NCBI GenBank assembly: GCA_023249225.1
Contig: JAHFDA010000012.1
Span: 1 to 58,117, forward strand
Source: a bacterium
Lineage (GTDB): Bacteria; Margulisbacteria; Marinamargulisbacteria; JAHFDA01
Reading direction: 5' to 3'
Length of the DNA stretch: 58,117 bases
Shown here piece by piece: positions 27,788 through 54,569 of the stretch. The notes under the pieces are model-generated. The model saw only the letters and a list, made by a program, of their open reading frames with translations. It had not been told where the DNA came from and did no database searches. Each line of letters starts with the position of its first letter. Position 1 is the stretch's first letter. Position numbers and translations under genes: made by a program.

Positions 27788-27789
27788 AT

Positions 27790-28200: not shown

Positions 28201-28223
28201 AATTTTTCCTCCTATTTTTTATC

Positions 28224-28491: not shown

Positions 28492-28511
28492 GAGGTTGTT
28501 TCAATTGTCGG

Positions 28512-29837: not shown

Positions 29838-30012
29838 ATCAAAGGGATCAACGCAGGCGCTTGAAATTCGATGCAGGCAAAACATGCTGGTATTTATCGA
29901 AGTAGGGTTTGGATTTGGTGCGCCCAAACAGATTGAAATATTTAGAATGCGAAAAGATGCAATTCAACTTTAGGATATTTCTGGCGATAAGCGCCTACAT
30001 GGGTAGGCCGCA

Positions 30013-31218: not shown

Positions 31219-31219
31219 A
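31214..31219 (+). promoter_or_regulatory. Possible -10 box before the 31227 gene
   Basis: TATAAA overlaps the stop codon of hppD and ends 7 bases before the GTG start of the next gene, with no ribosome-binding sequence between them. If used, the message would start almost exactly at the GTG. No -35 box is obvious. Confidence 0.35.
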
Positions 31220-31226
31220 ATCTAGT

Positions 31227-32971: not shown

Positions 32972-33002
32972 GAGTCAGGGGTGCAAGGCCCTGTCTCTTT
33001 TA

Positions 33003-34613
33003 TTAAATCAAAGCTTCGGCCAGAAAAATAATCCGCCACGCCTCGCGGATGTCGTCTTTAATGTAGGCCTTGTCATAATTTAGAATTTTTTTCGCTTTTT
33101 TAAGTAACTGCGCCATTTGTTGTTCTGGCGTTACCGACGCATCCCGGACTTGACTAAGCCAGGGTTTGGCCAGCAGCGGCGCGGTAAACTCACAAACTGC
33201 GGCTTCATCGCTGGGAAGTTCTGATGCTTCGAACATGGCCAGTTTTGCCAGGTGCTGCGGTGCCAGATGCGCGGACAACGGAAGTGTCTTGAAACGTTCG
33301 TGAATCCAAGCCATGCCTACGCCACGATCCATGGGGCGCGGAATGGAAAACAAGAGTCGGTCGCTCGTATGGCAAAACACGTTGTGACGGCGATAGCCGA
33401 CTTGACGCAGGGCATACTTGCCCTTTGAACGCAGGGCCGTGCGTCCGGGTTCAAGTGCGCTTGGGTCACAGACAAATTCTTCCACCTGCACACGCACATC
33501 GCGACCGGGAGCAAAATCATCGAGCAAAGTACAACGCAGGTTCAGCGGCGAGGTTTCCAGTCCCCGGCCCCAAAAGTGTCCCAAACCACGTTGCTCGGTT
33601 TTGTAAAAGCACTCGAAGCCCCCCTGGTTTCTGGAAATGCTGTGCGCCATGGCTTCGGTAAGCACGCTTAACCACAGCACGCTACCTGCTTTGACACCAT
33701 GGTATTCATTGCCGTGCGAGTTAAGATCGGTAAAATTCTCGCTGCCCAAAAGCAATACCGGAGGTTTAACGTTAACCACAGTCAAAAAACTTACCAGTTT
33801 GGTATACCCCTCGGGCACTGTCAGCATAAAGCACGGCATAGGCGTAAAGGCCGACGAAAGAATATGCATCTTCTGCGCCCGCTGAAGCTGATCAGCCGAA
33901 ACAGCCAGTACATTCTTGGCAGCCGGATCCATCACGCCTGCCGGATAACGCCAGTATCTGAAAGGATCACGCTGCGGATAGCGGGGATGCAGACGCTCGC
34001 CGCCCAGCATCAAAAATTCGCTGGCCTTCAGGTACTCGTCACCACCCATGCGTCCCACGGGGGACAACTGCTCCATGGGATTGAGGCTGGCCATGGAACC
34101 CATCAAGACGCGCCGGTCGACGCGCAGCGATTCCACTTGCACAATGACAGGTTCCCCCTGACCGGGCTGCGTGGCCACTGGCGCTTCGGCAATGACGCGG
34201 CACACCAGGTTGATCGGCGATTCCGCCACGCCAAAGGGTGCCACGCCGGAATAAGTTTCTTTGGTGAGTCCGGCACGCACAAATTCATCGTCGGGGTAGG
34301 GGGTGCTGGCAAGGATGCCTTGCATGACCACGTTAGGCGTAAACGCTGCGATGACAACCTGATCACCCACACGACTGTTGAGCGCGGTATCCTTGCGCAC
34401 ACCGTTTGAGGGGAGTACCGGCACATACACCAGGCGCATCCCGTCGTAATCCAAAATGGCCGCATAGCTGTACGGCGCCAGGTTCGCGCGATCGTCGCTT
34501 CCAATCGTGCTGACAAGATACGGATGGCGCGGCGCCACGCCGGGCAGGAGCAAACCCTGGAGTTCACGAATGTTCAGCGTATCCGCACGGAAAGCGATTT
34601 TTTTCTGCTTCAT
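33003..34613 (-). CDS. Flavin-reductase-like domain protein with unknown C-terminal half
   Basis: The first ~200 residues look like the flavin reductase (split-barrel, FMN-binding) domain: HPYLVSTIGSDDRANLAPYSY, KDTALNSRVGDQVVI and SPINLVCRVI. The following ~330 residues (from about PFRYWRYPAG) are unknown to me; they include MNxx-free soluble sequence with a Lys-rich C-terminal helix. At 536 residues it is about twice the size of stand-alone members. It overlaps the fahA stop by 4 bases (ATGA), so it is made with fumarylacetoacetase. A link to aromatic oxidation, for example supplying reduced flavin, is possible but only inferred. Confidence 0.72.
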   Translation of the reverse strand: MKQKKIAFRADTLNIRELQGLLLPGVAPRHPYLVSTIGSDDRANLAPYSYAAILDYDGMRLVYVPVLPSNGVRKDTALNSRVGDQVVIAAFTPNVVMQGILASTPYPDDEFVRAGLTKETYSGVAPFGVAESPINLVCRVIAEAPVATQPGQGEPVIVQVESLRVDRRVLMGSMASLNPMEQLSPVGRMGGDEYLKASEFLMLGGERLHPRYPQRDPFRYWRYPAGVMDPAAKNVLAVSADQLQRAQKMHILSSAFTPMPCFMLTVPEGYTKLVSFLTVVNVKPPVLLLGSENFTDLNSHGNEYHGVKAGSVLWLSVLTEAMAHSISRNQGGFECFYKTEQRGLGHFWGRGLETSPLNLRCTLLDDFAPGRDVRVQVEEFVCDPSALEPGRTALRSKGKYALRQVGYRRHNVFCHTSDRLLFSIPRPMDRGVGMAWIHERFKTLPLSAHLAPQHLAKLAMFEASELPSDEAAVCEFTAPLLAKPWLSQVRDASVTPEQQMAQLLKKAKKILNYDKAYIKDDIREAWRIIFLAEALI

Positions 34614-35908
34614 GGTTTTAATGCTGGCGCCACCGTTCCGCGCACTTCTCCAAAACCCACTCGATACCCTTCGCCTTGCGCATAAGCGTTCATCACAACC
34701 GTATCGCCGTCTTCGAGAAATTTACGCTCTTCGCCAGAAGGAAGTTTAAGCGGATTGGCCCCGTTCCAGGTCAGCTCCAAAAGACTTCCAAAAGAATCCG
34801 GCGTCGGGCCGCTAATCGTTCCGGAAGCCAGCAAATCGCCGGGGCGCAAATTACAACCGTTGCTGCTGTGGTGGGCCAGTTGTTGCAGCATGTTCCAGTA
34901 CAAGTAGCGCATGTTGCTGCGCGAAATCTGCGCCGGAGCATTCATCGCAGCGGTCTTGAGCGCCACGGCAAGTTCAATGTTCAGCGCCCAGTCTCCCACC
35001 GATTGCAAATAGGGGAGCGGCGCTGGATCCTGGGCGGGCGACGGCACACGAAAGGGCGCCAGCGCTGCCAGCGGAACGATCCACGGTGAAAGCGAGGTCG
35101 CAAAACTTTTGCCGAGAAAAGGCCCGAGCGGCTGGTATTCCCACTTTTGAATATCGCGCGCGCTCCAGTCATTGACCAGCACCAGGCCAAAAATGTGACT
35201 GGCCGCATCGCGAACAGAAACAGGGCGACCCAGCGCATTTCCGGGACCGATAAAAAATCCCATTTCAAGTTCAAAGTCTAAAATGCCGCTGGGTCCAAAT
35301 TGTGGAACACTCGCGCCATTTGAAAGGATCTGGCCAGAGGGCCGACGCACCGGCGTTCCGCTGATCACCACCGAACTTGCACGGCCATGATAGCCAATGG
35401 GCATATGCGTCCAGTTGGGCATCAGGGCATTGTCTTTGCCGCGCCACAGCGTGCCCACATTGGAGGCGTGTTCTTTAGAAGCATAAAAATCCGTATAGTC
35501 GCCAATGTCGACCGGCATACAAAGAGTCACCTGCGATTGCGGAATCAAAACAGCGTCCCGCAGTGCGGCGTGATCGCGCAATATGGAATTTTGTGCACTC
35601 AACAAATTTTGCAATTCCACCCGCACCATGGCCCAGGCCAAAGGTCCCAGGGCCATAAAAGCATTGAGCGTAGATTGCGACAAGGCCTCGCGTACAGCCG
35701 CTTGCGGATGACTAAAACAGCCGTTTTCCGCCAGGGCCGCCAGATCGAGCACATAGTCGCCAATGGCTACCCCGATGCGTGGCAATTCTCCAGTCCGACG
35801 GCGAAAAGTTCCGTAAGGGAGATTTTGGATAGGAAAGTGCGACTCCGCTGCCACTGGAATAAAGGAGCCAAGCAGACCCAGCGCCGGAGTTGCCACTTGT
35901 TTTTGCAT
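34610..35908 (-). CDS. fahA: Fumarylacetoacetase
   Basis: This enzyme hydrolyses 4-fumarylacetoacetate to fumarate and acetoacetate, the last step of tyrosine catabolism. The FAH-fold signature elements are FELEMGFFIGPGNALG with metal-binding acidic residues, LVNDWSARDIQKWEYQPLGPFLGKSF, and the N-terminal SH3-like domain starting SHFPIQNLPYG. The length of 432 residues is normal. It is the first gene of a minus-strand group with the flavin-reductase-like and SGNH-like genes, and is divergent from gshA over 66 bases. Confidence 0.95.
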   Translation of the reverse strand: MQKQVATPALGLLGSFIPVAAESHFPIQNLPYGTFRRRTGELPRIGVAIGDYVLDLAALAENGCFSHPQAAVREALSQSTLNAFMALGPLAWAMVRVELQNLLSAQNSILRDHAALRDAVLIPQSQVTLCMPVDIGDYTDFYASKEHASNVGTLWRGKDNALMPNWTHMPIGYHGRASSVVISGTPVRRPSGQILSNGASVPQFGPSGILDFELEMGFFIGPGNALGRPVSVRDAASHIFGLVLVNDWSARDIQKWEYQPLGPFLGKSFATSLSPWIVPLAALAPFRVPSPAQDPAPLPYLQSVGDWALNIELAVALKTAAMNAPAQISRSNMRYLYWNMLQQLAHHSSNGCNLRPGDLLASGTISGPTPDSFGSLLELTWNGANPLKLPSGEERKFLEDGDTVVMNAYAQGEGYRVGFGEVRGTVAPALKP

Positions 35909-35962
35909 GCTTTGTATCGCAAGACCCAGACAAAATCATGATTTGAATATATCGGGATTACG

Positions 35963-35968
35963 TATAAT
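35963..35968 (+). promoter_or_regulatory. Consensus -10 box before gshA
   Basis: A perfect TATAAT ends 6 bases before the gshA GTG, so the predicted transcription start is the start codon itself. No ribosome-binding sequence exists in the gap. The -35 region (about 35939-35945) is a poor match. The same 6-base arrangement occurs before purB. Confidence 0.5.
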
Positions 35969-35974
35969 GTTCCT

Positions 35975-37240
35975 GTGATCCGCCTCATTGAACAACGCCT
36001 GCGCGAGCGGCAGGGCGACGTGGATGCCTGGCTGGCGACCATCTGGAAGGACTGCGGTGTGCCCTTTTATGCCAGCGCGGATATCCGGAACGCCCATTTT
36101 AAGGTATCTGTGATTGATACCAATCTCTTTCCGGCGGGCTTCAACAATCTTTGTAGCACGGTTCGTGATGCTGCATCTGATGCTGTGCGAGACTACCTGT
36201 TGCGTTGCGCCGGAAATCCTCGATCGGTGCTGCTCATCACCGAAATGCATACCCGTAACCTGTATTACCTTGAAAATGTCGTGGCCTTGCAGGGCATTTT
36301 GCAAAAAGCGGGCGTAGAGGTTGTTTGTGGAACCTGGGGCTTGCCCGATGGCTCCAAACAGATGAGCTTTGATCTGCCCAGCGGACAAAAACTGCTGCTG
36401 CGCCAGATCTGTCGCAAAGACGTCAACGTGCTGGCTTGTGGCGAGACGGTGCCGGATGTGGTGATCAGCAACAACGATTTTTCAAATGGCATCCCGGAAC
36501 CGCTGCAAGGTGTGCGCCAGCCGATCTTGCCGCCGCCGCAACTGGGTTGGTATCAGCGCCGCAAAAGCGACCATTTTGTGTATTACAAAGACACTGTCAC
36601 AGAACTGGCCCGCATTCTCGACTTGGATCCGTGGTTGTTTTATCCGCTGACAGAACTCCAAGGTGGCATTGACTTTCAAGCCCAGGAAGGCCTGGAGGCT
36701 TTGGCGGCGACAGTGGATCGCGTGATTTCGCAGATACGGGAGCAATACGCGCGTTATCACATTACCGAAACACCCTACGTGTTTATCAAGAACAACCGTG
36801 GCACCTATGGGCTTGGCATCATGACTGCACGGCGCGGCGACGAGGTGCTGACGCTTAACCGCAAGCAGCGCAACAACATGGCCTACTCCAAATCAAAAAA
36901 AGCGGTGGACGAGGTGATTGTGCAGGAAGGCATTCCCACTTACGAGCGCGTTAAAGACCAGGCCGCCGAACCGGTCATGATGAGCATTGGTTCGCGGGTG
37001 ATTGGCGGATTTTTACGTTTTCACTCCGAACAAAATGACCAGGAAAACCTTAACAGTCCGGGCATGGCTTTTGAGCGCCTGTGTCTGACGGAATGTGTGT
37101 CAGAAGATCGTAGAGGACAGTTGTGCGTGGTCGACCGTTGCCGCGACACGGTGTATTCCTGCCTGACTCTGGCAGCGGTGGCGGCCTCCAGCCGCGAAAT
37201 GAAGGCCGTCCTGGCCAAGCCAGAGCAGATCCATGTCTAA
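35975..37240 (+). CDS. gshA: Glutamate--cysteine ligase
   Basis: This protein makes gamma-glutamylcysteine, the first step of glutathione synthesis. It resembles the ~420-residue ligase class known from Acidithiobacillus-like proteobacteria rather than the E. coli GshA class. Recognisable parts are FPAGFNNLC near residue 50, LITEMHTRNLYYLEN, and YVFIKNNRGTYGLGIM in the ATP-binding part. The assignment is supported by the following gene, glutathione synthase, which overlaps its end by 8 bases. The start is a GTG lying 6 bases after a TATAAT. Confidence 0.85.
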   Translation: MIRLIEQRLRERQGDVDAWLATIWKDCGVPFYASADIRNAHFKVSVIDTNLFPAGFNNLCSTVRDAASDAVRDYLLRCAGNPRSVLLITEMHTRNLYYLENVVALQGILQKAGVEVVCGTWGLPDGSKQMSFDLPSGQKLLLRQICRKDVNVLACGETVPDVVISNNDFSNGIPEPLQGVRQPILPPPQLGWYQRRKSDHFVYYKDTVTELARILDLDPWLFYPLTELQGGIDFQAQEGLEALAATVDRVISQIREQYARYHITETPYVFIKNNRGTYGLGIMTARRGDEVLTLNRKQRNNMAYSKSKKAVDEVIVQEGIPTYERVKDQAAEPVMMSIGSRVIGGFLRFHSEQNDQENLNSPGMAFERLCLTECVSEDRRGQLCVVDRCRDTVYSCLTLAAVAASSREMKAVLAKPEQIHV

Positions 37241-38183
37241 CGCCTTGCAGATTGCACATGTGCTGGACCCCTGGGCCAAGATAAATACACGCCTTGATAG
37301 TTCGATTCGCATTGCCTGGGCCTTGCAGGGGCGTGCCCATATCAATTGGTATGTACAGGCCGAGGATTTGATCTGGCACGAACATCAATTACAGGCGCGG
37401 GCACGGTCATTTACCATGTCAGAGGATCTGACGCAGATCAGTTTTCAAGAAGAACGCGTCTTGGATCTCTCCCAGATGGATGCCCTTTTTTTACGCAAAG
37501 ATCCGCCCTTTAGCACGGATTATTTGCATTACCTGCATTTGCTTGCACTCACACCCGAACGGCCTCTGTGCGTTAACGAGCCCGACGCGATCCGGGCGCA
37601 CAATGAAAAAATGTCCATTTTGGAATATCCGCAGTGGATACCGCGCACGGCCATTGCGCGCAAAGCCAGTGACATAAAACCCTTGGCACGGCAGATGGGC
37701 GGTCGCGTGGTGCTTAAGCCGCTTTATTTGTTTGGCGGAAAAAACATTCTGGTGGCCGATGTGCAAGACCGCAACTTTGACGCTCTGGTGGAGCTGGTGG
37801 CGGAACACGACACGCAATACATTATGATCCAGGAGTTCCTCGAAGACATTAGCCGGGGCGATGTGCGCGTGCTGGCGCTGGACGGCAAAATGCTGGGTTC
37901 GTTTACGCGCATTGCCGGACCCGAAAGTTACCGCAGCAATGTGGCGGCCGGCGGCAAGTGGCATCCGTATCCCCTCAACCCGCAAGAACAAGCCATTGTG
38001 AACCAGGTGATTTCCGACTGCGCCCGCAAGGGTCTGTACTTTGTGGGGCTCGACCTGATTGGCGGCAAGCTTACCGAAATTAACGTGACCAGCCCCACCG
38101 GTTTGCCGGCGCTGGATGAGCTGACGAATTTTAGGCACGAAGTCACGATTGCGGAGTGGGTGGAGCAACGGGTGAATCGGTAG
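37233..38183 (+). CDS. gshB: Glutathione synthase
   Basis: This ATP-grasp enzyme adds glycine to gamma-glutamylcysteine. Features in order are the N-terminal domain with FLRKDPPFSTDYLHYL, the ATP-grasp strands GGRVVLKPLYLFGGKNI, QEFLEDISRGDVRVLALDGK and the metal site ending in LTEINVTSPTG. The length of 316 residues is normal. The pair gshA-gshB is next to fahA. Glutathione is the cofactor of many maleylacetoacetate isomerases, the tyrosine-pathway step missing from this window. Confidence 0.95.
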   Translation: MSNALQIAHVLDPWAKINTRLDSSIRIAWALQGRAHINWYVQAEDLIWHEHQLQARARSFTMSEDLTQISFQEERVLDLSQMDALFLRKDPPFSTDYLHYLHLLALTPERPLCVNEPDAIRAHNEKMSILEYPQWIPRTAIARKASDIKPLARQMGGRVVLKPLYLFGGKNILVADVQDRNFDALVELVAEHDTQYIMIQEFLEDISRGDVRVLALDGKMLGSFTRIAGPESYRSNVAAGGKWHPYPLNPQEQAIVNQVISDCARKGLYFVGLDLIGGKLTEINVTSPTGLPALDELTNFRHEVTIAEWVEQRVNR

Positions 38184-42455: not shown

Positions 42456-44279
42456 ATGAAGGCACTGGGGCTGCTGCTGGGGTTTGTATTATCTTTGCTG
42501 CCCTTGCCTTTGCAGGCCGCTGGCGAAAAACCGGCCAATGATGAACCGCTGGCGCGTTATTATTTGCAGCCTCCTGCGGGCGCAGAACTGGCGTCTGAAA
42601 AACTGTTTACGCCGCCGCCCCTAAGCATCACTGCCGAAGACCATGTGCTCTTGCAAGGCGTGGCCAGCGCCAACATGCCCGTCACGGTCAATGGCAGGGT
42701 GGTGACGCGGGTGCGTGATTCTGAAAAGTTTTTTATTAAATACACGCTGGACCACATCGGTTTTCATGAACTGCTGATCGGATTGCCAGGATCTCCACTG
42801 CTGTGGCGCGGCGTCTTACGGACACCCCGGCTTTTGCCCGCGCCGACGGACGACTTTCCAGCGCAGGATGCCGTGATCCTGTTGGCTCTGGCCTATGACC
42901 CGGTGGTGCCCTCTACGTTTGATTTGCGCCACGAACTGACCCGCGCCGAGGCCGTGGAGCAGGTGGTGCTCAATGCCTGGCTTGAAGAAATGCCGCTGAC
43001 CGAGAACCTTAAACTGACCGATGTGCCGGTGACTCATTCAGTTTATGCTGATGTTTGTTTTTTAATGCGTCAGGGCGTGATCGCGCCGACCGAAACGTTC
43101 AAGCCGCAAAGCGTCATGTCGCTGGCCCAGGGCATCACGCTGTTGTACCGGCTGGCGGGCGCGCCAGCGGTTGATGCTGAAAAATCCCCCAGTACCCTTG
43201 CCAGCGATGAATTTTTTAAAGCCGCCTGGGCTTGGGGACTGTCACAGCAGCGCTTGTCTGCCAGTGATCGTCCGGTCGACCGCCTAACGCAAGAAAAATG
43301 GTTGCGCTGGATACTCAAGGATACCTGGCACGGTGAGGTGGCGGGCTCTGCCAAGATGTTTCAATATGCTCCCGCCGTGGCGCCACAATTTGAAGCATTA
43401 AAACAGCAGTTACAAGAACATGATATCGCTGTGGCCGAACTGGCTGCGCCAAAACCGCTTGCAAAATTGGCTCCCTCGGCGGTCAGCAAGACACCCGAAA
43501 GCGCCTCTGTCCCCAGGCCTGCTGCGGCAGCGCCAGCCCCCCTGCCGCTTCAAATACCTCCTGCTCCAAAAGACCGGGTACTGCAAGTGGAGTTGGTTGC
43601 GCCCCTTGACCGCAATCCGGTTTATGGTTTTTCACATATCCTGGTATTGCGTGTGCAGTACGAGCAACAGGGTTGGGTCACTTTAAATCAAAAACTTAAT
43701 TTGGATCTTGGAAAAAACACAATCAAATTGGGTGGTTTTGACAAACCTTTAGAGCCCTTGCGCCTGGTCTGCCTCAAACAGTATTCAGATGTGGGTATTT
43801 TAAAACCCGAGGAACAAAAAAAAGTAGAATGGTTGAGCGGCATTGGCGTTTTTGATGATGTCCCCCACGGGGATCCCCTCTATTTGACCCGTCGCATGGT
43901 CAAGGAAAGCGTGTTGCGTGAATTGCGGCGTATCTCCACGTGGCGCAGTCAGATTGATGAGGGCAAGCTGGACGGTATTTTTTATCATCAGTCGAATGTC
44001 ACACGCGAACAGCTTTTAAAAGGGTTGGTCACACTGGAAGGCATTGATATTGTGCCGTTTCACAAACTGCGGCCTGATTGGAATCCGTTTGCTGACATTT
44101 CCATTATCCACCCATCGTTTCCGGTGGCAGCAGCGGCGTATCAGGCCAAAATTCTTACTGTGTCCCGCGTACGGCCCGATGACGTGGTGACGCGCGCGGA
44201 CTTTCTTGATTTTCTATGGAATTGTCCATCGGTGATGGCCAAAGTAGATGCGCTTCAAGATTGGGAGCAGGGATTTTAG
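42456..44279 (+). CDS. Exported protein with SLH-like domains
   Basis: A 607-residue protein with a signal peptide (KALGLLLGFVLSLLPLPLQAAG). Two SLH-like stretches can be seen: about residues 145-245 (DVPVTHSVYADVCFLMRQGVI followed by FKPQSVMSLAQGITLLYRLAG) and the C-terminal ~60 residues (FADISIIHPSFP to VVTRADFLDFL). A Pro/Ala-rich linker (about 340-370) separates the halves. SLH domains usually anchor proteins to wall polymers or the S-layer, so an envelope role is inferred. The start has no obvious ribosome-binding site, but a TAGTAT box lies 5 bases upstream. Confidence 0.75.
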   Translation: MKALGLLLGFVLSLLPLPLQAAGEKPANDEPLARYYLQPPAGAELASEKLFTPPPLSITAEDHVLLQGVASANMPVTVNGRVVTRVRDSEKFFIKYTLDHIGFHELLIGLPGSPLLWRGVLRTPRLLPAPTDDFPAQDAVILLALAYDPVVPSTFDLRHELTRAEAVEQVVLNAWLEEMPLTENLKLTDVPVTHSVYADVCFLMRQGVIAPTETFKPQSVMSLAQGITLLYRLAGAPAVDAEKSPSTLASDEFFKAAWAWGLSQQRLSASDRPVDRLTQEKWLRWILKDTWHGEVAGSAKMFQYAPAVAPQFEALKQQLQEHDIAVAELAAPKPLAKLAPSAVSKTPESASVPRPAAAAPAPLPLQIPPAPKDRVLQVELVAPLDRNPVYGFSHILVLRVQYEQQGWVTLNQKLNLDLGKNTIKLGGFDKPLEPLRLVCLKQYSDVGILKPEEQKKVEWLSGIGVFDDVPHGDPLYLTRRMVKESVLRELRRISTWRSQIDEGKLDGIFYHQSNVTREQLLKGLVTLEGIDIVPFHKLRPDWNPFADISIIHPSFPVAAAAYQAKILTVSRVRPDDVVTRADFLDFLWNCPSVMAKVDALQDWEQGF

Positions 44280-44309: not shown

Positions 44310-45878
44310 ATGCACGCACTCAAGCCCTTTATCGAAGCCCAGTGTCAAGAACTATGCGGTTATACGCTGACAACAGCGGTACTCGAAGTACCACCCGATC
44401 CTACGTTGGGCGACTTTGCCAACAAAGCCGCCTTTGCATTGGCAAAGCAGCGCCGCATGGCTCCGCCTAAAATCGCCGCAGAACTGGCGGAGCAGTTGCG
44501 TGCCGCAGCACCGGAGTGGCTGGCAGATGTTTCGGCGACCGGTCCGTACATCAACCTGCGCTTGTCGGATGCGTGGCTAATGGAACAGCTACAGGCCGAA
44601 ACCTGGGCGGGCACGGAGCCTGCGCCAGATTCAGTGGCTTGGTTGCTGGAATACGTTTCGGCCAATCCCACCGGCCCCCTGCACATTGGTCACGCGCGCT
44701 GGGCGGCGGTGGGGGACAGCCTGGCGCGCTTGCTGACGTATGCAGGAGAGCGCGTGCAGCGGGAGTTTTATGTCAACGATGCCGGTATGCAGGTGGCCAA
44801 CCTGCGCCGCTCGGTCGACGCCGTGCGCGCCGGAAAACCTGTGCCCGAAGACGGCTACCACGGAGACTACGTCAAGGAACTGGCGCAGCAGACCGCCGAC
44901 CCGGTGGGCCTGATGCTGGCCGAGCAACGCGAAACCCTGCATGGCGCAGGCGTGGAGTTTGATGTGTGGTTTTCGGAACTGGACTTGCATCGCAGCGGCG
45001 CGGTAGAAAAAGGTCTCGAACGTTTACGCCAGGGCGCTTTCACATTTGAACACGAAGGCGCCCTCTGGTTCCGCTCCACCGCCTACGGCGACGACAAGGA
45101 TCGCGTGCTACGCAAATCTGACGGCAGCCTGACGTATTTTGCCGCCGACATTGCCTATCACCTCAACAAACTCGAACGTGGCTTTGGGCGTCTGGTGAAT
45201 TTATGGGGCGCCGACCACCACGGCTACATCAAGCGCGTGGATGCCGCTGTGGCCGCCTTGTCCCAAAGCCTCGGACGGCCTTACGCGCCCGGCGAGACGC
45301 TGCATGTACTCCTCGGCCAGCTCGTAAACCTTTTCCGCAACGGCGAGCCGGTGCGCATGAGCAAACGCACGGGAGACATGGTCAGCATGCAGGAAGTCAT
45401 GGACGAGATCGGCGTCGACGCCCTGCGCTATCTACTCATTCGCAAGCATCCCAACACGCACATGGACTTCGATTTGGCCAAGGCCGTGGAGCAAAGCCCG
45501 GATAATCCGGTCTACTACGTCCAATACGCCTATGCCCGCCTCTCATCCATTTTGCGCAAAGCCTCGGTAGGGGCAATTCATGAATTGCCCCTACAATTAC
45601 CACAACCATTACATCCCTCCGAACGTGCCGTGATCCTTAAAGCGCTGCAATGGCGCGATGTGGTGGCCGAATCCGCCGCCTTGCTCGAACCACAGCGCAT
45701 TTGCACATTCCTGGAGGAACTTGCGGTGCTCTTGCACGTCTTCTATCACGACTGCCGCGTCATCGACGAAGCCGATGCCCCGCGTACGGCCTTCCGACTG
45801 GCGCTGGTGCAAAAGTGGCAAGGGCTTTTTCGGACGGGTCTGGAACTATTGGGGGTCAGCGCTCCGGAACAAATGTGA
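44310..45878 (+). CDS. argS: Arginyl-tRNA synthetase with an in-frame palindrome insertion
   Basis: This enzyme charges tRNA-Arg and is normally essential. Class I signatures are present: PLHIGHARWA (HIGH motif) and VRMSKRTGD (KMSKS-like). The C-terminal DALR anticodon-binding domain starts with YYVQYAYARLSSILRKA. Directly after this helix, ten codons (VGAIHELPLQ) come from a perfect 28-base palindromic repeat, which keeps the frame and leads into SERAVILKALQWRDVV. The total length of 522 residues is slightly short for the family. As it is probably single-copy, I infer the insertion is tolerated. Confidence 0.96.
   Translation: MHALKPFIEAQCQELCGYTLTTAVLEVPPDPTLGDFANKAAFALAKQRRMAPPKIAAELAEQLRAAAPEWLADVSATGPYINLRLSDAWLMEQLQAETWAGTEPAPDSVAWLLEYVSANPTGPLHIGHARWAAVGDSLARLLTYAGERVQREFYVNDAGMQVANLRRSVDAVRAGKPVPEDGYHGDYVKELAQQTADPVGLMLAEQRETLHGAGVEFDVWFSELDLHRSGAVEKGLERLRQGAFTFEHEGALWFRSTAYGDDKDRVLRKSDGSLTYFAADIAYHLNKLERGFGRLVNLWGADHHGYIKRVDAAVAALSQSLGRPYAPGETLHVLLGQLVNLFRNGEPVRMSKRTGDMVSMQEVMDEIGVDALRYLLIRKHPNTHMDFDLAKAVEQSPDNPVYYVQYAYARLSSILRKASVGAIHELPLQLPQPLHPSERAVILKALQWRDVVAESAALLEPQRICTFLEELAVLLHVFYHDCRVIDEADAPRTAFRLALVQKWQGLFRTGLELLGVSAPEQM
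45567..45594. repeat. Perfect 28-bp palindrome inserted within argS
   Basis: The arm GTAGGGGCAATTCA (45567-45580) is followed directly by its exact reverse complement (45581-45594). Its first base is the first base of an argS codon and the repeat is read as VGAIHELPL, with the next codon giving Q. From memory, this peptide appears at odd places in many bacterial proteins because this repeat is widespread. A different palindrome family interrupts etfA in this window. Confidence 0.92.
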
Positions 45879-45958: not shown

Positions 45959-47116
45959 ATGCTGCTTCAACATCGAACCGCCTTTAACACTGGCTTTTTC
46001 GCCCTGGCCTTATGCGCCGGGTGTAGTAACGACCAACAATTTATCGGACAGCTCGATGCTCCGGCTTCGAATCTGGACGACGTGCTTTACGCCGACCCTT
46101 TGCTCGTCCTCAACGGGAAAGATCCGGACGGAAAATCCGAGCTTGTGGTCATGGATCTGGCGGGCGACCTGATCATGCCGGAAATCGCTCTGGAGGATTT
46201 AGAGTATAGCCTTACCGAAACTACCAGCTACCATCTTTACGCCGACAACCTGACCTTGTTTCAGGATCGTTACGTGCTAATAACCGGATACCTCCTGTAC
46301 GCAGTCGACACACCGCTGATCGAAGTGGTGGATCTGGATCAAGCAGATGCAACGCCGTACCGCATTACGCTGCCATTTGACGCCAGCGAAACCGTACTGG
46401 GAGTCCAGGCGGTCAATGATGCGCTTTATGTTCTCACGGCCACGGCGGGAGCCTACATCGATAACGTTCGGTTTTACGACGATGGCATCTATCAACTGCA
46501 CGACTACGATATCCGCGTATACACCCTGGCTTTGGACGGAACCATCAGTCTGGTCTCGGCGCAAACATTGTCTGGCATAGAGGCCTTTGGAAAGGAGACC
46601 CGGCAGGACTACGACTGGGGAACCGGATTTTCGCTGTATAAAACCCGCGCGCCCTATCTGGGCATGGTACATTTCATGAAGACGCTCGACGCTCCAAACC
46701 ACATGGATCATACGTTTTACTTTTTTGACACCACGGATCCCAACTTGGGCTGGCAGGAATATTCCCATACCGGTTTTGAAAATACCGTCCTGCACAACGA
46801 AGTGGACTATTACTATCCCGACGATGGTCTTTATTCCAAAATTCATGACGACGCCATGGCAGAACCTTACGTCTATTCCTGCGGTCGGCTGACGATGGAC
46901 TGGGAGGATCTCAACGGCGGTGCCGAAGACATCGACGCTCTGATTGAGGTTCCTGACGCCTGTGTGGTCAGCGCCTGGAGTTACAATCCGGATCAAATCG
47001 TGACTTTATACGCGTCCGATGGCGAAATTGTTTTAGATCGGTATATCGATTCCGCCGGAGTTGAACATCCCTTGCCACTCTACGGGGAGGTCGCGTTACT
47101 ATGGAAGCAACCTTGA
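45959..47116 (+). CDS. Tandem-family lipoprotein 1
   Basis: A 385-residue predicted lipoprotein with lipid-attachment region ALCAGC, after which the family motif CSNDQQF begins. It shares with the next three genes a central DxNGD/AGD-type segment, a YYPDDG motif near residue 285, a later pair of cysteines (SCGRL and DACVV) that could form a disulfide, and an ending GEVALLWK. Predicted to be mostly beta structure, perhaps a propeller. It may begin the operon: TTGAAA (45924-45929) and GATACA (45948-45953) could be -35 and -10 boxes. No ribosome-binding site is obvious. Confidence 0.82.
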   Translation: MLLQHRTAFNTGFFALALCAGCSNDQQFIGQLDAPASNLDDVLYADPLLVLNGKDPDGKSELVVMDLAGDLIMPEIALEDLEYSLTETTSYHLYADNLTLFQDRYVLITGYLLYAVDTPLIEVVDLDQADATPYRITLPFDASETVLGVQAVNDALYVLTATAGAYIDNVRFYDDGIYQLHDYDIRVYTLALDGTISLVSAQTLSGIEAFGKETRQDYDWGTGFSLYKTRAPYLGMVHFMKTLDAPNHMDHTFYFFDTTDPNLGWQEYSHTGFENTVLHNEVDYYYPDDGLYSKIHDDAMAEPYVYSCGRLTMDWEDLNGGAEDIDALIEVPDACVVSAWSYNPDQIVTLYASDGEIVLDRYIDSAGVEHPLPLYGEVALLWKQP

Positions 47117-48222
47117 ACCTTCTGCAAGCCCGCCGCTGCGCCGTTTCAAATCGTTTTGCGTTGTCGTTCCGCTTATCGGCTACCTTGCTTCTGCTACGCT
47201 GCAGCAGTGACCAGAATTTTATTAGCGCTGCCCCCAACGATTATGCCTCGCTCGATGATGTAATCGCCACAGCCCCCTTGTTGGCTGTGGTCGGAGAGAA
47301 TGCTTCGGGCGCCAATGAACTGCTTATCATGGACCTGAACGGCGATGAGGTCGCCGGACAAGAATACGTTTTGTACGGTTACTCAACGGACTACGCTTTT
47401 GCCATCACGGACGGATACCCGCACATCATGCAAGTCTTCCAGAACCAATACATCCTGTTGGCCGCTCCGGCGGGCAATCATACGCCCGCAAGTCTGTGGG
47501 TCGTTGACTTTGAGAACAACCAGATCATGACGCCCATCGAACTCGATTTCCCGTCCGGGCAGGAATGGATCGGATTCAGCGTACTCGACGATGCCATCTA
47601 CGCCGTCACGCTCGACGGCCACGATTGGTTTACCACGTATAGCGTAGACCTGACGGGCAACATGCAACAGATTGCACGCCAGCATATTTCCGGACCCAAT
47701 CGGGAATTCGATGACAATATGATCGCCGTGGTCGGAACCCGGCAGCCCTACATCAGTCTTATGCGCGTAAAAGATGCGGTCGACAGCATTCCGACCAACG
47801 GGTTTTACTTTATGGACACGAGCGCCAATGCGCCATCCTGGCAGTCCTACACCAGCGGGTACGAAGACACAGATATGTATGGCTACCCCGGCTACTATTA
47901 CCCCGACGACGGAATATTTGGCTATGCCATTTCTGCTTCGGACGGATATGCCGAAACGCTGTTGTGCGGTGACCGTTCGATCACCATGCAGGACAAAGCC
48001 CTGGGATATATTCGCGTCGATCCTGTTTTTAACGAAGCCGGAGCCTGCATCATGAGCGGCGGCTTGAACGAGAATACAGGTGGATCCAATATGACGCACC
48101 GCGACTATGTCATCCGCCTGTACGCCAGCGACGCCTATATGGAACTAAACGGTTTTAACACGACCGATGGACAGCAGCAGCCCATGCTGACGTCCGGCGA
48201 CGCTGTGTTGATATATAAGTAA
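47101..48222 (+). CDS. Tandem-family lipoprotein 2
   Basis: A 373-residue paralogue of the neighbouring lipoproteins, with the motif CSSDQNF after a Leu-rich signal (LLLLRC), MDLNGDEVAGQ, YYYPDDG, the paired cysteines LLCGDR and GACIMS, and the ending SGDAVLIYK. It overlaps gene 1 by 16 bases and has GGGGAGG about 10 bases before the ATG. It is more divergent than genes 3 and 4. Function unknown. Confidence 0.82.
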   Translation: MEATLNLLQARRCAVSNRFALSFRLSATLLLLRCSSDQNFISAAPNDYASLDDVIATAPLLAVVGENASGANELLIMDLNGDEVAGQEYVLYGYSTDYAFAITDGYPHIMQVFQNQYILLAAPAGNHTPASLWVVDFENNQIMTPIELDFPSGQEWIGFSVLDDAIYAVTLDGHDWFTTYSVDLTGNMQQIARQHISGPNREFDDNMIAVVGTRQPYISLMRVKDAVDSIPTNGFYFMDTSANAPSWQSYTSGYEDTDMYGYPGYYYPDDGIFGYAISASDGYAETLLCGDRSITMQDKALGYIRVDPVFNEAGACIMSGGLNENTGGSNMTHRDYVIRLYASDAYMELNGFNTTDGQQQPMLTSGDAVLIYK

Positions 48223-48264
48223 TCTAGCTAGAACAACTCTGAAATCCGCATTGGCCAGACTCGA

Positions 48265-48270
48265 TATATA
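48265..48270 (+). promoter_or_regulatory. Possible -10 box before tandem lipoprotein 3
   Basis: TATATA ends 7 bases before the ATG at 48278 and only 1 base before an in-frame GTG at 48272. No ribosome-binding site is seen. If used as a promoter, it would give a leaderless message starting at the ATG. No good -35 box is visible. Confidence 0.35.
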
Positions 48271-48277
48271 AGTGACC

Positions 48278-49441
48278 ATGCTTTTTTACCATACCATTGC
48301 CTTGCGTCCATCCAGTCTTGGCTTGCTGATGGCCCTGTCGTTTGCAGGCGCTTGCGGCAGTGATCAGGGATTTACTGGTTCTGTCGGAACTTTTGATTCA
48401 CTCGACAGTATCCTCGGCCAGGATCCTTTACTGGCCATTGTGGGCCGCTACGTTGACGGCGATGGAGAACAGGTGGATTACGCTCTGCACATCGCCGACT
48501 TGAATGGCGACTTGGTTCCAGACGGAACACAGTATCCCGAATATCCCGCTCTTTTGACCTACGGATCTTCGTATCCCGAAAGTGCCGACAACCTCTACGT
48601 TTTTCAAAACCGTTATGTGGTTCTTACGGGCGTGGGACGATGCAATGCCCGTGTGCTCAAAACCTTCGACCTGAACGCATGGAATTGGCTGGAACCCCTG
48701 ATGCTCAACCTGTCCGAAGATGAACGGGTACTGGGGCTTAGCCCACATGCCGACGCGCTTTACATGGTCACGGCTCAACCGGTGGCGGATTTGGGTTGGA
48801 TAGACTCCGATAATTACTATATAAATTTTAAACGTTATGACTACGACATGCGTGTTTATGATGTCAATCTTCTGGATCAAGACATCCAGGAATTATCCGT
48901 TGTGCGGATGCGAGGCGTGGATACGGAGACTATAGCGAATGCCGACGTAAGCTGGGGCAGCTTATACGCCTTGTTTCAAAGCCGCGACCCGTACATCGGA
49001 CTCATCCACAAGGGTTCCGAAATCGGCGAAAACAATGACACATATTTTTTCAACGTGAATCACCCCGAAGATGAATGGCAATTTCAAAGCGTTATTGACA
49101 TAGGCGCCTATCACGGGCAGTTTGACTATTACCATCCCGATGACGGCTACTATGTGGCAATGTACAACGATGCCCAAATATATTATTTATGCGGCAGACT
49201 GACGATTACCGGAAGATTCGGTTCAATGACTGACATCGACCCGCTGGTAGACACGGGCAGCACCTGCATGATCTACGAGTATTCCGTCGTTAACGAACAT
49301 CTTATCTCCGATGTTTCGCTGTATGCTTCGGATAGCAACATGACCATCGGCCACCTGACGGCGCAAGACGGAAGCACGGTTGAGATGCCCAACTATGGCG
49401 AAGCGGCCCTGATTTGGAAAAGCAGGGAGGGAGATCAATGA
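48278..49441 (+). CDS. Tandem-family lipoprotein 3
   Basis: A predicted lipoprotein with signal ending FAGAC and motif CGSDQGF. It contains FDSLDSILGQDPLLAIVGRYVDG, DLNGDLVP, YYHPDDG, the cysteine pair YLCGRL and STCMIY, and the ending GEAALIWKS. Large parts are nearly identical, at DNA level too, to the following gene, so the two are recent duplicates. An alternative GTG start at 48272 is possible. Its stop overlaps the next ATG by 4 bases. Function unknown. Confidence 0.85.
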   Translation: MLFYHTIALRPSSLGLLMALSFAGACGSDQGFTGSVGTFDSLDSILGQDPLLAIVGRYVDGDGEQVDYALHIADLNGDLVPDGTQYPEYPALLTYGSSYPESADNLYVFQNRYVVLTGVGRCNARVLKTFDLNAWNWLEPLMLNLSEDERVLGLSPHADALYMVTAQPVADLGWIDSDNYYINFKRYDYDMRVYDVNLLDQDIQELSVVRMRGVDTETIANADVSWGSLYALFQSRDPYIGLIHKGSEIGENNDTYFFNVNHPEDEWQFQSVIDIGAYHGQFDYYHPDDGYYVAMYNDAQIYYLCGRLTITGRFGSMTDIDPLVDTGSTCMIYEYSVVNEHLISDVSLYASDSNMTIGHLTAQDGSTVEMPNYGEAALIWKSREGDQ

Positions 49442-50610
49442 AACCTTTGCAGCTTCGGCACAGCGCCATGCCTGCACGATGGACTACCCTTGCTTTCTTG
49501 GCTATGGCAGCTTGCGGCAGCGACCAAAATTTCACTAGTCCCGTTGGAACTTTCGATTCACTCGACAGTATCCTCGGTCAGGATCCTTTACTGGCCATTG
49601 TGGGCCGTTATGTCGATGGAGAGGATTACACCGAAACTTATGTTTTGGATATTATCGATCTCAATGGCGATCTTGTTCCAGAGGGCATTCAGTATCCGCA
49701 ATATCCCGCTTTTCTGGTGAACGGATCTTCGTATCCCGTAGGTGCCGACAACCTGTACGTTTTTGAAAACCGTTATGTGGTTCTGGCGGGCGTGAGGCTA
49801 TCCAGCGAAGGCAATACCAATGTGCTCGAAACCTTCGACCTTAATACGTGGGACTGGCTAGAACCTCTGGCGCTAAACCTTTCCGAAGATGAACGGGTGC
49901 TGGGACTTAGCCCGCATACCGACGCGCTTTATATGGTCACGGCTCAACCGGTGGCGGATTTGGGTTGGATAGAGTCCGACAATCCCTATACGTATTTCAA
50001 GCGTTATGACTACGACATGCGCGTTTATGCTGTCAATCTTCTGGATCAAGACCTTCGGGAATTATCCGTTGTGCGCATGCGCGGTGTGGAGGCTTTGGCG
50101 GCTGCCAGCGCAAGCAAGGGCAGCTTATACGCCTTGTTTCAAAGCCGCGACCCATACATCGGCCTCATCCACAAGGGTGATGAAATCGGCGAAGACAATG
50201 ACACATATTTTTTCAACGCGAATCACCCCGAAGATGAATGGCAGTTTCAAAGCGTTATTGTAGGCGGTTATGCGGGCCAGTTTGATTACTACTATCCCGA
50301 CGACGGCTCCTATGCGGCGGATAACGGTGCTGAACCGCCTTATTATGTTTGCGGCGGGCTGACCATTTACGGTGAACCCGATTCCGGAAACGTGGCCGAC
50401 ATCGACCCGCTAGTGGGCACAGGCAGCACCTGCATGACCTACAAGGAGGAGTCCGAAGATAACGGATGTTCTATCGCCAATGTTTCGCTGTATGCTGCGG
50501 ATAGCAGCATGAGCATCGGCCACATGACGGCGCAAGACGGAAGCACGGTTGAAATTCCCAACGAAGGCGAAGCGGCCCTGATTTGGAAAAGCACGGAGGA
50601 AAATCAATGA
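49438..50610 (+). CDS. Tandem-family lipoprotein 4
   Basis: A close paralogue of gene 3: signal ending AMAAC, motif CGSDQNF, the same FDSLDSILGQDPLLAIVGRY block, DLNGDLVPEG, YYYPDDG, cysteine pair YVCGGL and STCMTY, and ending GEAALIWKS. The start was set at 49438 (not the upstream in-frame ATG at 49414) because GGGAGG lies about 6 bases upstream and the ATGA overlap with the preceding stop is typical here. Its stop overlaps the start of gene 5 in the same way. Confidence 0.88.
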   Translation: MKPLQLRHSAMPARWTTLAFLAMAACGSDQNFTSPVGTFDSLDSILGQDPLLAIVGRYVDGEDYTETYVLDIIDLNGDLVPEGIQYPQYPAFLVNGSSYPVGADNLYVFENRYVVLAGVRLSSEGNTNVLETFDLNTWDWLEPLALNLSEDERVLGLSPHTDALYMVTAQPVADLGWIESDNPYTYFKRYDYDMRVYAVNLLDQDLRELSVVRMRGVEALAAASASKGSLYALFQSRDPYIGLIHKGDEIGEDNDTYFFNANHPEDEWQFQSVIVGGYAGQFDYYYPDDGSYAADNGAEPPYYVCGGLTIYGEPDSGNVADIDPLVGTGSTCMTYKEESEDNGCSIANVSLYAADSSMSIGHMTAQDGSTVEIPNEGEAALIWKSTEENQ

Positions 50611-51797
50611 ACACCCTGCAACTTCGACGGAGCGCCATGCCCGCACGCTGGACTGCCCTTGCCTTCTTTGCTCTGGTCGGCTGCAACATCGAAAACAATA
50701 TCGATAACTACACCCCGCCGCTCGAACTAAACGGCGATGATCCCGGTAATGGCAGTGGCTTTGATTTGGGAGCGCTGGCGGGTATTCCAGATTTCCGCAT
50801 TGCGTTTGTGGACTATCACGACAACGAACAGTATCTGCGCGGCGTCAACAAACTCATTAACCTGACGCACTCGCTGGAAATTCCGGTTGCAAGCTATGGC
50901 CACATCACGCACGCCATGCCCTGGCTGGAAGCGGACGGCACCCTGTCCTTTTACGATCCATATATATTGGTCACCCACGACAGCCCCAGCGCGCTACTGC
51001 CCGTCACCGACCAGGTCGATGGAACGATGTATCGTTCTGTACTCAAAGCCAGCATGGTCGACGAAACGGTCGCGGTACTGTTGACCGCAGATGACTTTAC
51101 GACCTTTGATATCGATCCCGAAACAGCGGAACTCGAAACCCTTGATCCTGCCACAATCGAATTTGGCCCGGCACTTGCGCTTGGGGACGACTGGGGCGTG
51201 TTCGTCTATTCAGGCGGAAGCATCTACGTATACAGCGATGTGTCCGGTGAGCAAAAGCTGACCACACTCGACATGCTCGGCCAGCAGTACGAAGTCGCAT
51301 CGGTCGGACTAGGTGCTTCGTTTAACGAGGTCCTTATCGCCAGTCAGGGAGACGAATGGTACGTGCACAGCTTCAACCTGCTCGACCAGAGCCTGACCGA
51401 AAAATATCACACCGACGATGACTACGATGTCTTTTTGGCCTCAACGCTGCTCGACGATTCCGGAAACCTGACGGGCGACATCGGTTTCATCTCCAGTACC
51501 CAGCACAGCAACTCCGCCGACACCACCGCTGAGATCATGAACGGGGACGAGTTGTTTGCCACCAGCGCCTTTACCAGTGGCGGCCTTGTGGCCCAGGACG
51601 ACACGGTGTTCGTCAACGAGCTCAACGACGACGACGATACGGCCCAGTGGGTGTTGCACTACGTGGCCTCGACCTCGGGCAACGGAAGCAATTTGGCCAA
51701 CAACTGGGACACCGTCACCATCGACCGCTATTACAACGTGGTGACTCCCAAAAAGTTTTTGACCCTTGATCTGATGTTCTTTCCGGAGTTTGAGTAA
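50607..51797 (+). CDS. Tandem-array lipoprotein 5 (divergent)
   Basis: A lipoprotein with a clear lipobox (ALVGC). Its signal region (NTLQLRRSAMPARWTALAFF) is clearly homologous to gene 4 (KPLQLRHSAMPARWTTLAFL). The mature part is different: it lacks the SDQNF, YYPDDG and ALIWK motifs and the cysteine pair. Repeated short strands (VAVLLTADDFTTFDI, WGVFVYSGGSIYVYSD, TAEIMNGDELFATS) suggest a beta-propeller. So the export signal was duplicated, or converted, onto another protein, or the gene diverged strongly. GGAGG lies upstream of the ATG, which overlaps the preceding stop. Confidence 0.82.
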   Translation: MNTLQLRRSAMPARWTALAFFALVGCNIENNIDNYTPPLELNGDDPGNGSGFDLGALAGIPDFRIAFVDYHDNEQYLRGVNKLINLTHSLEIPVASYGHITHAMPWLEADGTLSFYDPYILVTHDSPSALLPVTDQVDGTMYRSVLKASMVDETVAVLLTADDFTTFDIDPETAELETLDPATIEFGPALALGDDWGVFVYSGGSIYVYSDVSGEQKLTTLDMLGQQYEVASVGLGASFNEVLIASQGDEWYVHSFNLLDQSLTEKYHTDDDYDVFLASTLLDDSGNLTGDIGFISSTQHSNSADTTAEIMNGDELFATSAFTSGGLVAQDDTVFVNELNDDDDTAQWVLHYVASTSGNGSNLANNWDTVTIDRYYNVVTPKKFLTLDLMFFPEFE

Positions 51798-51841: not shown

Positions 51842-53134
51842 GTGATCGAACGTTACAGTCGGCCGCAAATGGCCAATATCTGGACCCTGAAAAACAAGTT
51901 CCAGCGCTGGCTGGATGTTGAAATCGCTGCTTGCGAAGCCCAGTCCGAAATGGGACGCATTCCGGCGGCAGCGCTACAGGTCATCAAGAGCCGGGCCGCT
52001 TTTGATGTACAGCGCATTGATGAAATTGAAAAAACCACCCAACATGATGTGATTGCGTTTTTAACCAGTGTGGCCGAAAAAGTAGGCCCGGAAGCGCGCT
52101 TTATCCACCTGGGATTAACCAGTTCAGATGTGGTGGATACGGCATTTTCGCTGGTGTGCATGCAAGCCACGGATCTTGTGCTCGAGGAAATTGACCGGCT
52201 TTGCGCCGTGCTCAAAAAACGTGCGCTGGAATTTAAAAGTACGCCCTGCATGGGCCGCACACATGGCGTGCATGCCGAGCCCATGACTTTTGGCATGAAG
52301 CTGGCTCTGGCTTATGCCGAAATGGGCCGCAGCCGCCAGCGGCTGTTAGATGCGCGTCAGAGCATTGCGGTTGGAAAGCTTTCGGGAGCAGTGGGCACGT
52401 ACTCCAATATGGATCCCGAGGTTGAAAACGCAGTGTGCCGCAAACTGGGGTTACAGATCCTGCCGATTTCTACACAGATCATCCAACGCGACCGGCATGC
52501 CCAGCTCATCAGCGCGCTGGCCATTCTGGCAGGCAGTCTGGAACGCCTTGCAACCGAAGTCCGCGGACTGCAAAAGACCGAATGTGGCGAAGTTGAGGAA
52601 CCCTTTGGCGCAGGCCAAAAAGGCTCCTCCGCCATGCCGCATAAAAAGAACCCCATTATCTGCGAACGCATTACCGGTTTGGCGCGGGTGTTGCGGGGTT
52701 ACGCATTGGCGGCGTTTGAGAACCAGTCTTTGTGGCACGAACGCGACATCAGCCACTCAAGCACCGAGCGGGTTATTTTTCCGGATGCCTTTACGTCCAT
52801 CGATTACATGCTGGCCAAAATGACTTGGGTCATTGAAGGCTTGGTGGTTTATCCGCAGCGCATGCTCGAAAATATTGACGCTCTGGGAGGCCTGGTATTT
52901 TCGGGTCGCCTCCTGGTGACCTTGGCCGAAGCCGGCATGACGCGTGACGAAGCCTATGCCATGGTGCAGCGCCACGCCATGGAAGCGCGCAAGGGAGGCC
53001 CCACCTTTAAGGCCCGCGTGCAAGGCGATATGGACATCCGCCGCAAACTGACTCCGCAGATTCTTTCTTCGATATTCTCGCTACAGGATTACATTAAGCA
53101 CGCGCCAGCCATTGTGGAACGTGCCGTGAGGTGA
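51842..53134 (+). CDS. purB: Adenylosuccinate lyase
   Basis: This enzyme splits adenylosuccinate and SAICAR in purine synthesis. The superfamily signature is GSSAMPHKKNPI near residue 262. Other motifs are TSSDVVDTA, MGRTHGVHAEP with the catalytic His and QSLWHERDISHSSTERV. The length of 430 residues is normal. The GTG start follows a TATAAT by 6 bases. Its TGA stop is formed by the first copy of the palindromic repeat at 53131. Confidence 0.96.
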   Translation: MIERYSRPQMANIWTLKNKFQRWLDVEIAACEAQSEMGRIPAAALQVIKSRAAFDVQRIDEIEKTTQHDVIAFLTSVAEKVGPEARFIHLGLTSSDVVDTAFSLVCMQATDLVLEEIDRLCAVLKKRALEFKSTPCMGRTHGVHAEPMTFGMKLALAYAEMGRSRQRLLDARQSIAVGKLSGAVGTYSNMDPEVENAVCRKLGLQILPISTQIIQRDRHAQLISALAILAGSLERLATEVRGLQKTECGEVEEPFGAGQKGSSAMPHKKNPIICERITGLARVLRGYALAAFENQSLWHERDISHSSTERVIFPDAFTSIDYMLAKMTWVIEGLVVYPQRMLENIDALGGLVFSGRLLVTLAEAGMTRDEAYAMVQRHAMEARKGGPTFKARVQGDMDIRRKLTPQILSSIFSLQDYIKHAPAIVERAVR

Positions 53135-53220
53135 AGCGTCCGCTCGTGAAGCGTCCGCCCGTGAAGCGTGAAGCGTAATTTGTATTTGCGCTTCACGAAC
53201 GACGCTTCACGCTTCACGAA
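53131..53220. repeat. GTGAAGCGT repeat with inverted copies
   Basis: Copies of GTGAAGCGT (with GTGAAGCGTCCGC variants) occur in direct orientation in the left part and as inverted copies ACGCTTCAC in the right part. Together they form a large imperfect hairpin around a TTTGTATTTG centre. It fills the gap between the convergent purB and JAMM genes. Both stop codons (purB TGA at 53132-53134 and the JAMM TGA on the minus strand at 53207-53209) lie in repeat copies. It might also act as a bidirectional terminator, though it has no T run. Confidence 0.85.
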
Positions 53221-53629
53221 TTTGAATCTCTTCTTCCACCATCTGCTGCGCCTCGTTTAAGATCCAATTGTGATGATCGTGGTACTCGCCCTTGTGAATC
53301 GCAATGATGAGGTAGCTATACACTGGCCAGGCATGCAAGCGATCTGTTTCCGAGGCACGTGACGGATGATCGGGGTGGCTGTGAAAAATACCTACGATGC
53401 TAAGGCCCTCTTTGGCAGCTGCTTTTTCGGCGCGCATAAAGCCTTGGGGATCCAAATCGTAACGGTCGTGGGCGCGCGCGCGGTTTAAGTTTTCAATCTC
53501 GACCACCTGCGTCACAGATTTTACGCCGTCTTTAAGTGTCCCCACCATCACGCCGCAGCACTCGTGCGGATAGGCCTTGCGGGCAATGGCCACCATGTCT
53601 TTAAAAAGATTATTTGGAACCCAAAGCAT
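53207..53629 (-). CDS. JAMM/MPN+ metalloprotease (Mec-like)
   Basis: A 140-residue zinc isopeptidase-like protein with a complete JAMM motif: Glu23, then HSHPDHPSRASETD with His83, His85, Ser93 and Asp96. Small proteins of this kind release cysteine from the C-terminus of a ThiS/MoaD-like sulfur carrier (Mec in Mycobacterium). The gene overlaps the cysteine synthase gene by 20 bases, the expected partner. The last three residues (REA) and the stop come from the palindromic repeat, so the C-terminus has been altered. Confidence 0.88.
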   Translation of the reverse strand: MLWVPNNLFKDMVAIARKAYPHECCGVMVGTLKDGVKSVTQVVEIENLNRARAHDRYDLDPQGFMRAEKAAAKEGLSIVGIFHSHPDHPSRASETDRLHAWPVYSYLIIAIHKGEYHDHHNWILNEAQQMVEEEIQIREA

Positions 53630-54569
53630 AAGCTCCCCAATCGGTTACTTCAAAAATCTTTTGCCCCGCCTGCACATGGGTATCGTCTCCGGCCGGGAGA
53701 ATGGTCACCATCACGCCCTGACTGATTTCTGACGCAATGCGGCTTGCAGCCACCAGGGCACCCGCGGCAGAAGTGCCCACGTGCAGACCGCTTTGTTTCT
53801 GAAGTTTAGCCTGCATCTCATAAGCGGCATCGGTATCCACAAACAAGTGTCTATCGGCAAGCTTGGGGTCGTAGATGCCCGGCACAATTGCCGTGGCCAT
53901 GTGTTTAAGGCCTTCCATGCCATGCAGCGATTCTTCGGGCTCCATGGAGATCGCCTGGATCTTTTTGTGTTCGGCTTTGAGGCGCCGACTGGTACCCATA
54001 AAAGTTCCGGTCGTTCCCAGTCCGGCCACAAAGTGGGTGATGCGGTTTTGGGTTTGCCAGAGAATTTCAAGCGCAGTGGTTTGGTAATGGGCCTTCCAGT
54101 TGTGTTCGTTAAAGTACTGATCGGCGTAAAAATATTTTTCTGGGTTTTCTTTGACCCGTTTGCGGGCCAGAATAATGGCCCCGTCAGAACCCGCCAGGGG
54201 ATCCGAAAAGATGATTTTAGCGCCTGCCTTTTCGGCCGCATTGCGGCGTTCGTCCGCAACGTTTTTGGGCATCACCAGTTCCACCGCATAGCCCTTTAAC
54301 TGCCCCAGCACGGCATAAGCCACGCCGGTATTGCCAGAGGATGCATCGATGATTATTTTGCTTTTAGTAAGCTGCCCGCTCTTTTCGCCCTCTTCAACAA
54401 TATTCAGCGCCGGACGAAACTTAACCGAGCCGCTGGGGTTATACCACTCGGCCTTGGCAAAGATTTCCACGCCTGGTTTTGAAAGACCTTTAAAACGTAA
54501 CAGAGGAGTGGCCGGAAAACTTGCGATCCGTGACAGGGTGTTTAGTGGTGTTTGGGTATCCGGATGCAT
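53610..54569 (-). CDS. cysM: Cysteine synthase (CysM-like)
   Basis: This PLP enzyme makes cysteine by beta-replacement. The PLP lysine is Lys50 in NPSGSVKFRPALN; the residue after it is Phe rather than the usual Asp. The phosphate-binding loops SSGNTGVA and GLGTTGTFMG are present. The length of 319 residues is normal. It is translated with the JAMM gene, which suggests that the sulfur donor may be a carrier-protein thiocarboxylate, with O-phosphoserine or O-acetylserine as acceptor; which one cannot be told from sequence. Confidence 0.88.
   Translation of the reverse strand: MHPDTQTPLNTLSRIASFPATPLLRFKGLSKPGVEIFAKAEWYNPSGSVKFRPALNIVEEGEKSGQLTKSKIIIDASSGNTGVAYAVLGQLKGYAVELVMPKNVADERRNAAEKAGAKIIFSDPLAGSDGAIILARKRVKENPEKYFYADQYFNEHNWKAHYQTTALEILWQTQNRITHFVAGLGTTGTFMGTSRRLKAEHKKIQAISMEPEESLHGMEGLKHMATAIVPGIYDPKLADRHLFVDTDAAYEMQAKLQKQSGLHVGTSAAGALVAASRIASEISQGVMVTILPAGDDTHVQAGQKIFEVTDWGAYALGSK

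Follow-up and report, generated by a model that had tools for sequence, protein, structure and literature searches.

A lineage-restricted tandem array of acidic, putative propeller lipoproteins and an out-of-register duplication between lipobox regions in a probable Margulisbacteria genome

BamB, the propeller lipoprotein of the BAM complex, is conserved, PQQ-like and eight-bladed. BPP43_05035 of Brachyspira pilosicoli is a surface lipoprotein adhesin that forms a six-bladed beta-propeller (PDB 7ZAO) and binds glycans, and it was described as a single protein unique to that species (PMC11444514). BtuG of Bacteroides, a seven-bladed propeller surface lipoprotein (PDB 3DSM), binds vitamin B12 (PMC6143338). 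The locus considered here lies in a window of 58,117 nucleotides (the whole stretch of DNA that was analysed) on contig C60 of a 2.83 Mb genome that is 97% complete (G000). The ArgS encoded in the window has its nearest match among named genomes in Candidatus Termititenax (Margulisbacteria, 50%); a Marinamargulisbacteria contig (49%) and Saganbacteria are also among the high-ranking matches, and contigs labelled as spirochaetes score nearly as well. The host is accordingly taken to be a probable member of the Margulisbacteria that lacks near relatives among sequenced genomes. The argS-purB interval of the window consists of five co-directional genes, g1 to g5, the first four of which (45959-50610) are paralogous:

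44310..45878, forward strand: argS, the left flank of the array.
45959..47116, forward strand: g1, an exported, probable lipoprotein paralog of 385 aa, with a lipobox-like CAG-C22 (C at −3) and the C308/C335 pair.
47113..48222, forward strand: g2, a paralog starting at TTG 47113 or ATG 47101, with a signal-like N-terminus and Arg at −1 of the conserved Cys.
48272..49441, forward strand: g3, a paralog starting at GTG 48272 or ATG 48278, with the lipobox FAGAC.
49438..50610, forward strand: g4, a chimeric paralog with a body like that of g3 and a signal region like that of g5; ATGA overlap with g3.
50607..51797, forward strand: g5, an unrelated acidic lipoprotein with a signal region common to g4 and the lipobox ALVGC; ATGA overlap with g4.
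51842..53134, forward strand: purB (adenylosuccinate lyase), the right flank of the array.

Like BPP43_05035, the g1-g4 proteins are species-restricted, and they resemble it in size and in having one propeller domain behind a lipid anchor, both domain and anchor being predictions here; unlike that single protein, they form a set of four tandem paralogs. With BtuG they share an anchored propeller, again a predicted one here, and the presence of several homologs per genome, and extracellular ligand capture is BtuG's role. However, the BtuG genes adjoin btuB transporter genes, whereas no transporter gene was recognised beside g1-g5. A PDB search with the g1-g4 profile gave no significant match to BPP43_05035 and no significant sequence similarity to BtuG. 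The likeness to BamB lies in a lipoprotein with a propeller (predicted for g1-g4), but the g1-g4 family has no member in the 73 other phylum genomes searched and is without a PQQ-type Pfam match.

A sequence-only reading had taken the four tandem genes for one family, and they are indeed homologous over their whole length, both by BLASTP (E=4e-51 for g1-g3 and 1e-23 for g2-g3) and in the alignment, where 54 columns are invariant in g1-g4. Protein identity reaches 73% between g3 and g4 and lies at 28-35% for every other pair. The motifs that had been claimed, namely C-x-x-D-Q-x-F, YY/YH-PDDG, a cysteine pair and a G..xL..K ending, were all found in g1-g4, the conserved cysteines being C308 and C335 in g1 numbering. 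Because pN is lower than pS in every pair, g1-g4 are real coding genes, and they are under purifying selection; in the recent pair, g3-g4, dN is 0.19 and dS 0.47. Positive selection on the C-terminus of g3/g4 was considered and set aside, since the 1 synonymous and 12 nonsynonymous differences over 44 codons gave no significant departure (p=0.19).

The genes are tightly packed. The start codons of g4 and g5 are ATG 49438 and ATG 50607, rather than upstream TTGs; each gene overlaps the preceding stop by a 4-nt ATGA and has a GGAGG-like site before its start. The g2 gene most plausibly starts at TTG 47113, with a TTGA overlap with the g1 stop, or at ATG 47101. In the 50-nt spacer before g3 (48222-48278), 11 nt of the g2 3' end (GATATATAAGT) are repeated and then followed by TGA, and this repeat is perhaps the scar of a lost copy. 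Promoter and terminator scans gave nothing better than shuffled sequences.

We then turn to the distribution of the family. The four proteins were also said to belong to no recognised family, and this view was borne out: Pfam, NCBIfam and PHROG gave no match, and the searches outside the host genome gave no clear relative. The best E-values in these three profile collections were 0.06-0.2, none of them passing the cut-offs, and membership of g1-g4 in a known family was rejected for want of a significant match there. A copy-number survey with the g1-g4 profile found exactly 4 copies, in their own genome, and 0 matches in 73 other genomes of the same phylum. Three further phyla were searched together (~1,170 genomes): no match was obtained in 386 genomes from the phylum of a Gastranaerophilales genome or in 395 from that of a 'Deltaproteobacteria' genome, and one marginal, partial match in 393 from that of a 'Spirochaetia' genome. 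The collections of named genomes, phages, plasmids and viruses yielded no clear relative, the named-genome and viral scans having used short exact peptide patterns that would miss distant relatives. A phage or plasmid origin was likewise rejected, with no match among phages, plasmids and viral contigs. The g1-g4 family is thus absent from the collections searched. The spirochaete protein (L117:1321-2457) is a lipoprotein-like orphan that matches a beta-propeller family below threshold, and its gene adjoins a sugar-kinase-like gene; with a partial match of 26.6 bits and an hhalign Prob of 19%, it was not accepted as a homologue and is read as a possible fold echo.

The propeller fold had been a guess, and it found moderate support in a structure model, along with weak and non-significant sequence resemblances to kelch proteins and other propellers. 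The AlphaFold2 model built from the four sequences (pTM 0.69, mean pLDDT 63.5) is all-beta, with strands grouped in fours. According to this model, residues 99-359 would form five four-stranded sheets, and the N-terminal strands together with the C-terminal strand would form the sixth, the blade count being a reading of the model's strand list. Many of the Foldseek neighbours are propellers, including the kelch protein KBTBD4 (TMq 0.42), prolyl oligopeptidase, henipavirus G, the PHL lectin and GH43/levansucrase, the TM-scores in the PDB listing being 0.2-0.42 with large rmsd. The best Foldseek E-values were obtained for Tc-toxin subunits and for viral and phage proteins with differing folds; the Tc-toxin matches were not considered meaningful (TMq 0.26-0.30, rmsd mostly 15-18). 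The PDB profile search echoed mostly kelch proteins, none significantly. Moreover, comparison of the profile with itself gave no significant off-diagonal match indicative of internal sequence repeats. Propellers poor in sequence repeats are common, and the missing repeats are therefore compatible with a propeller. Altogether, a beta-propeller fold of g1-g4 is supported by the model but not proven.

The claim that these are lipoproteins has to be divided. The PS51257-like pattern used for scoring is satisfied by g3 (FAGAC), g4 (AMAAC) and g5 (ALVGC), and it is broken in g1 (LCAGC, with Cys at −3) and g2 (LLLRC, with Arg at −1). The claim thus stands for g3-g5, is likely for g1, where only position −3 is off, and is doubtful for g2, which may not be lipidated because of the Arg at −1 of the conserved Cys. 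Judged from these signal regions, a lipid anchor of g3, g4 and probably g1 is supported but not proven. The mature g1-g5 proteins are strongly acidic (pI 4.05-4.08, net charge −34 to −52; compare −14 for argS and +4 for purB). Omp85/BamA-type proteins are encoded in the host genome, which indicates a diderm envelope; LolA was sought in this genome and was not detected.

The fifth gene was thought to share only the signal region with the others. At the protein level this is correct, as g5 and g4 are 61% identical over 31 residues (residues 1-31) with no further match, but at the DNA level the similarity crosses the gene boundary: that of the g4 and g5 starts extends back into the 3' end of the preceding gene, g3 and g4 respectively. 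The possibility that g5 is a diverged fifth paralog was rejected, with an hhalign Prob of 1.2% against the g1-g4 profile and a genome search that gave no link between the bodies; its body is unrelated to g1-g4 in sequence. The structure model of g5 is of no use (pLDDT 32), so a fold in common with g1-g4 is conceivable. A comparison of the g3/g4 junction with the g4/g5 junction gives 178 identical DNA positions out of 205 (87%). The similar segment begins ~135 nt upstream of the start codon and extends ~70 nt beyond it, and the resemblance fades near the lipobox. The direct repeats D1-D6, spaced 1160-1169 bp apart, cover everything between the g3 lipobox and the g5 signal region, and this stretch resolves into two copies of one unit:

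48350..49509, forward strand: duplication unit, copy 1, from the g3 lipobox to the g4 lipobox (~1.16 kb).
49510..50702, forward strand: duplication unit, copy 2, from the g4 lipobox into the g5 signal region.

The signal shared by g4 and g5 is therefore explained by a tandem duplication of ~1.16 kb that runs between lipoboxes and is offset from the gene limits, and g4 is a chimera that joins a g5-like signal to a g3-like body. The simplest history of the array would start from four genes in the order g1-g2-A-E. An unequal exchange that paired the lipobox region of A with that of E would have duplicated the segment made of the A body, the junction and the E signal, leaving A (g3), an A body with an E signal (g4) and E (g5). 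When g3 is compared with g4, synonymous divergence is uneven along the gene (permutation p=0.003), which suggests later conversion or exchange. The locus is accordingly a tandem paralog array with recombination between adjacent homologous copies.

The site itself differs from that of other genomes. In three relatives (L012, L018 and L035, the last labelled Marinamargulisbacteria), argS is followed by ispG and then purB, whereas in the host the array fills the argS-purB interval and ispG lies on a different contig (G000:C51:14959-16047). The host ispG is only ~32% identical to the copies in these relatives, so a replacement, and not a simple relocation, is possible. An SLH-domain protein (42456-44279) is encoded directly upstream of argS, and weak matches to it occur upstream of argS in two further relatives (L023, L028). 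Elsewhere in the window, 26027-38183 encodes homogentisate dioxygenase, fumarylacetoacetase, aldehyde dehydrogenase and a glutathione synthesis pair (GshA and GSH synthetase), which points to aerobic aromatic amino acid degradation beside glutathione genes. At 53207-54569, a JAB/Mov34 metallopeptidase gene overlaps a PLP-dependent cysteine-synthase-like gene, resembling protein-bound sulfur transfer pairs.

With about even confidence, we consider g1-g4 to be lineage-restricted, strongly acidic, envelope-anchored, propeller-like binding proteins. They would be exported proteins of ~40 kDa whose mature part folds as a single, probably six-bladed, beta-propeller, in which the conserved G[ED]xxL[LI][WY]K end would complete, as its final strand, a blade that starts with PLL..G / DL.GD close to the N-terminus, and C308 and C335 would tie adjacent blades together. 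The proteins would most likely serve at the cell envelope in ligand binding or adhesion, with a separate paralog for each ligand variant. The array would have grown by tandem duplication and exchange between copies, and the out-of-register event between lipobox regions would have put the g5-type signal on g4. By analogy with the described propeller lipoproteins, the most likely function of g1-g4 would be to bind ligands at the envelope, and we infer a surface location.

Alternatively, g1-g4 might be structural or scaffold lipoproteins of the periplasmic face, BamB-like and devoted to envelope assembly, neither surface-exposed nor ligand receptors. The propeller-like model and the presence of Omp85 in the genome are in line with such a role, as is the position of the SLH-domain protein and argS immediately upstream of the array in the same orientation, but assembly parts are normally phylum-wide, which does not fit a family missing from the 73 other phylum genomes, and four divergent copies are unexpected for a core scaffold; we hold this reading to be rather unlikely. 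That they are enzymes, secreted or anchored, whose catalytic domain is a propeller of, for example, the GH43/68 or an esterase-like type seems unlikely to us: GH43, levansucrase and related five-bladed folds do occur among the structural neighbours and several Asp columns are invariant, yet no Glu is found among the 54 invariant columns, the TM-scores are low, and neither a glycosidase nor any other enzyme family was matched. One could also imagine horizontally acquired or decaying genes, functionless and kept as a transient duplication array, as the lack of homologs in the phylum and the poor lipobox of g2 might suggest. This is very unlikely in view of the intact reading frames, of pN below pS in each pair, the recent one included, and of a GC3 resembling that of the neighbours.

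Returning to anchored binding proteins, g1-g4 add an orphan family to a general kind already known, that of tandem exported, probably propeller, lipoproteins; for now it stands beside many other orphan families in such genomes. It illustrates cleanly how such a family spreads inside a single, poorly sampled lineage. The array also keeps a readable record of the origin of a new anchored protein, in which breakpoints at the lipobox gave a body the signal type of an unrelated neighbour. We speculate further, as a rather unlikely extension, that a family of propeller receptors was born in one probable Margulisbacteria lineage, where recombination at the lipobox swaps body and signal/anchor modules between unrelated lipoprotein genes that adjoin each other and thereby yields new anchored binding proteins. 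Should g1-g4 prove to be surface receptors, they would offer an initial way into how members of this uncultured group interact with their environment.
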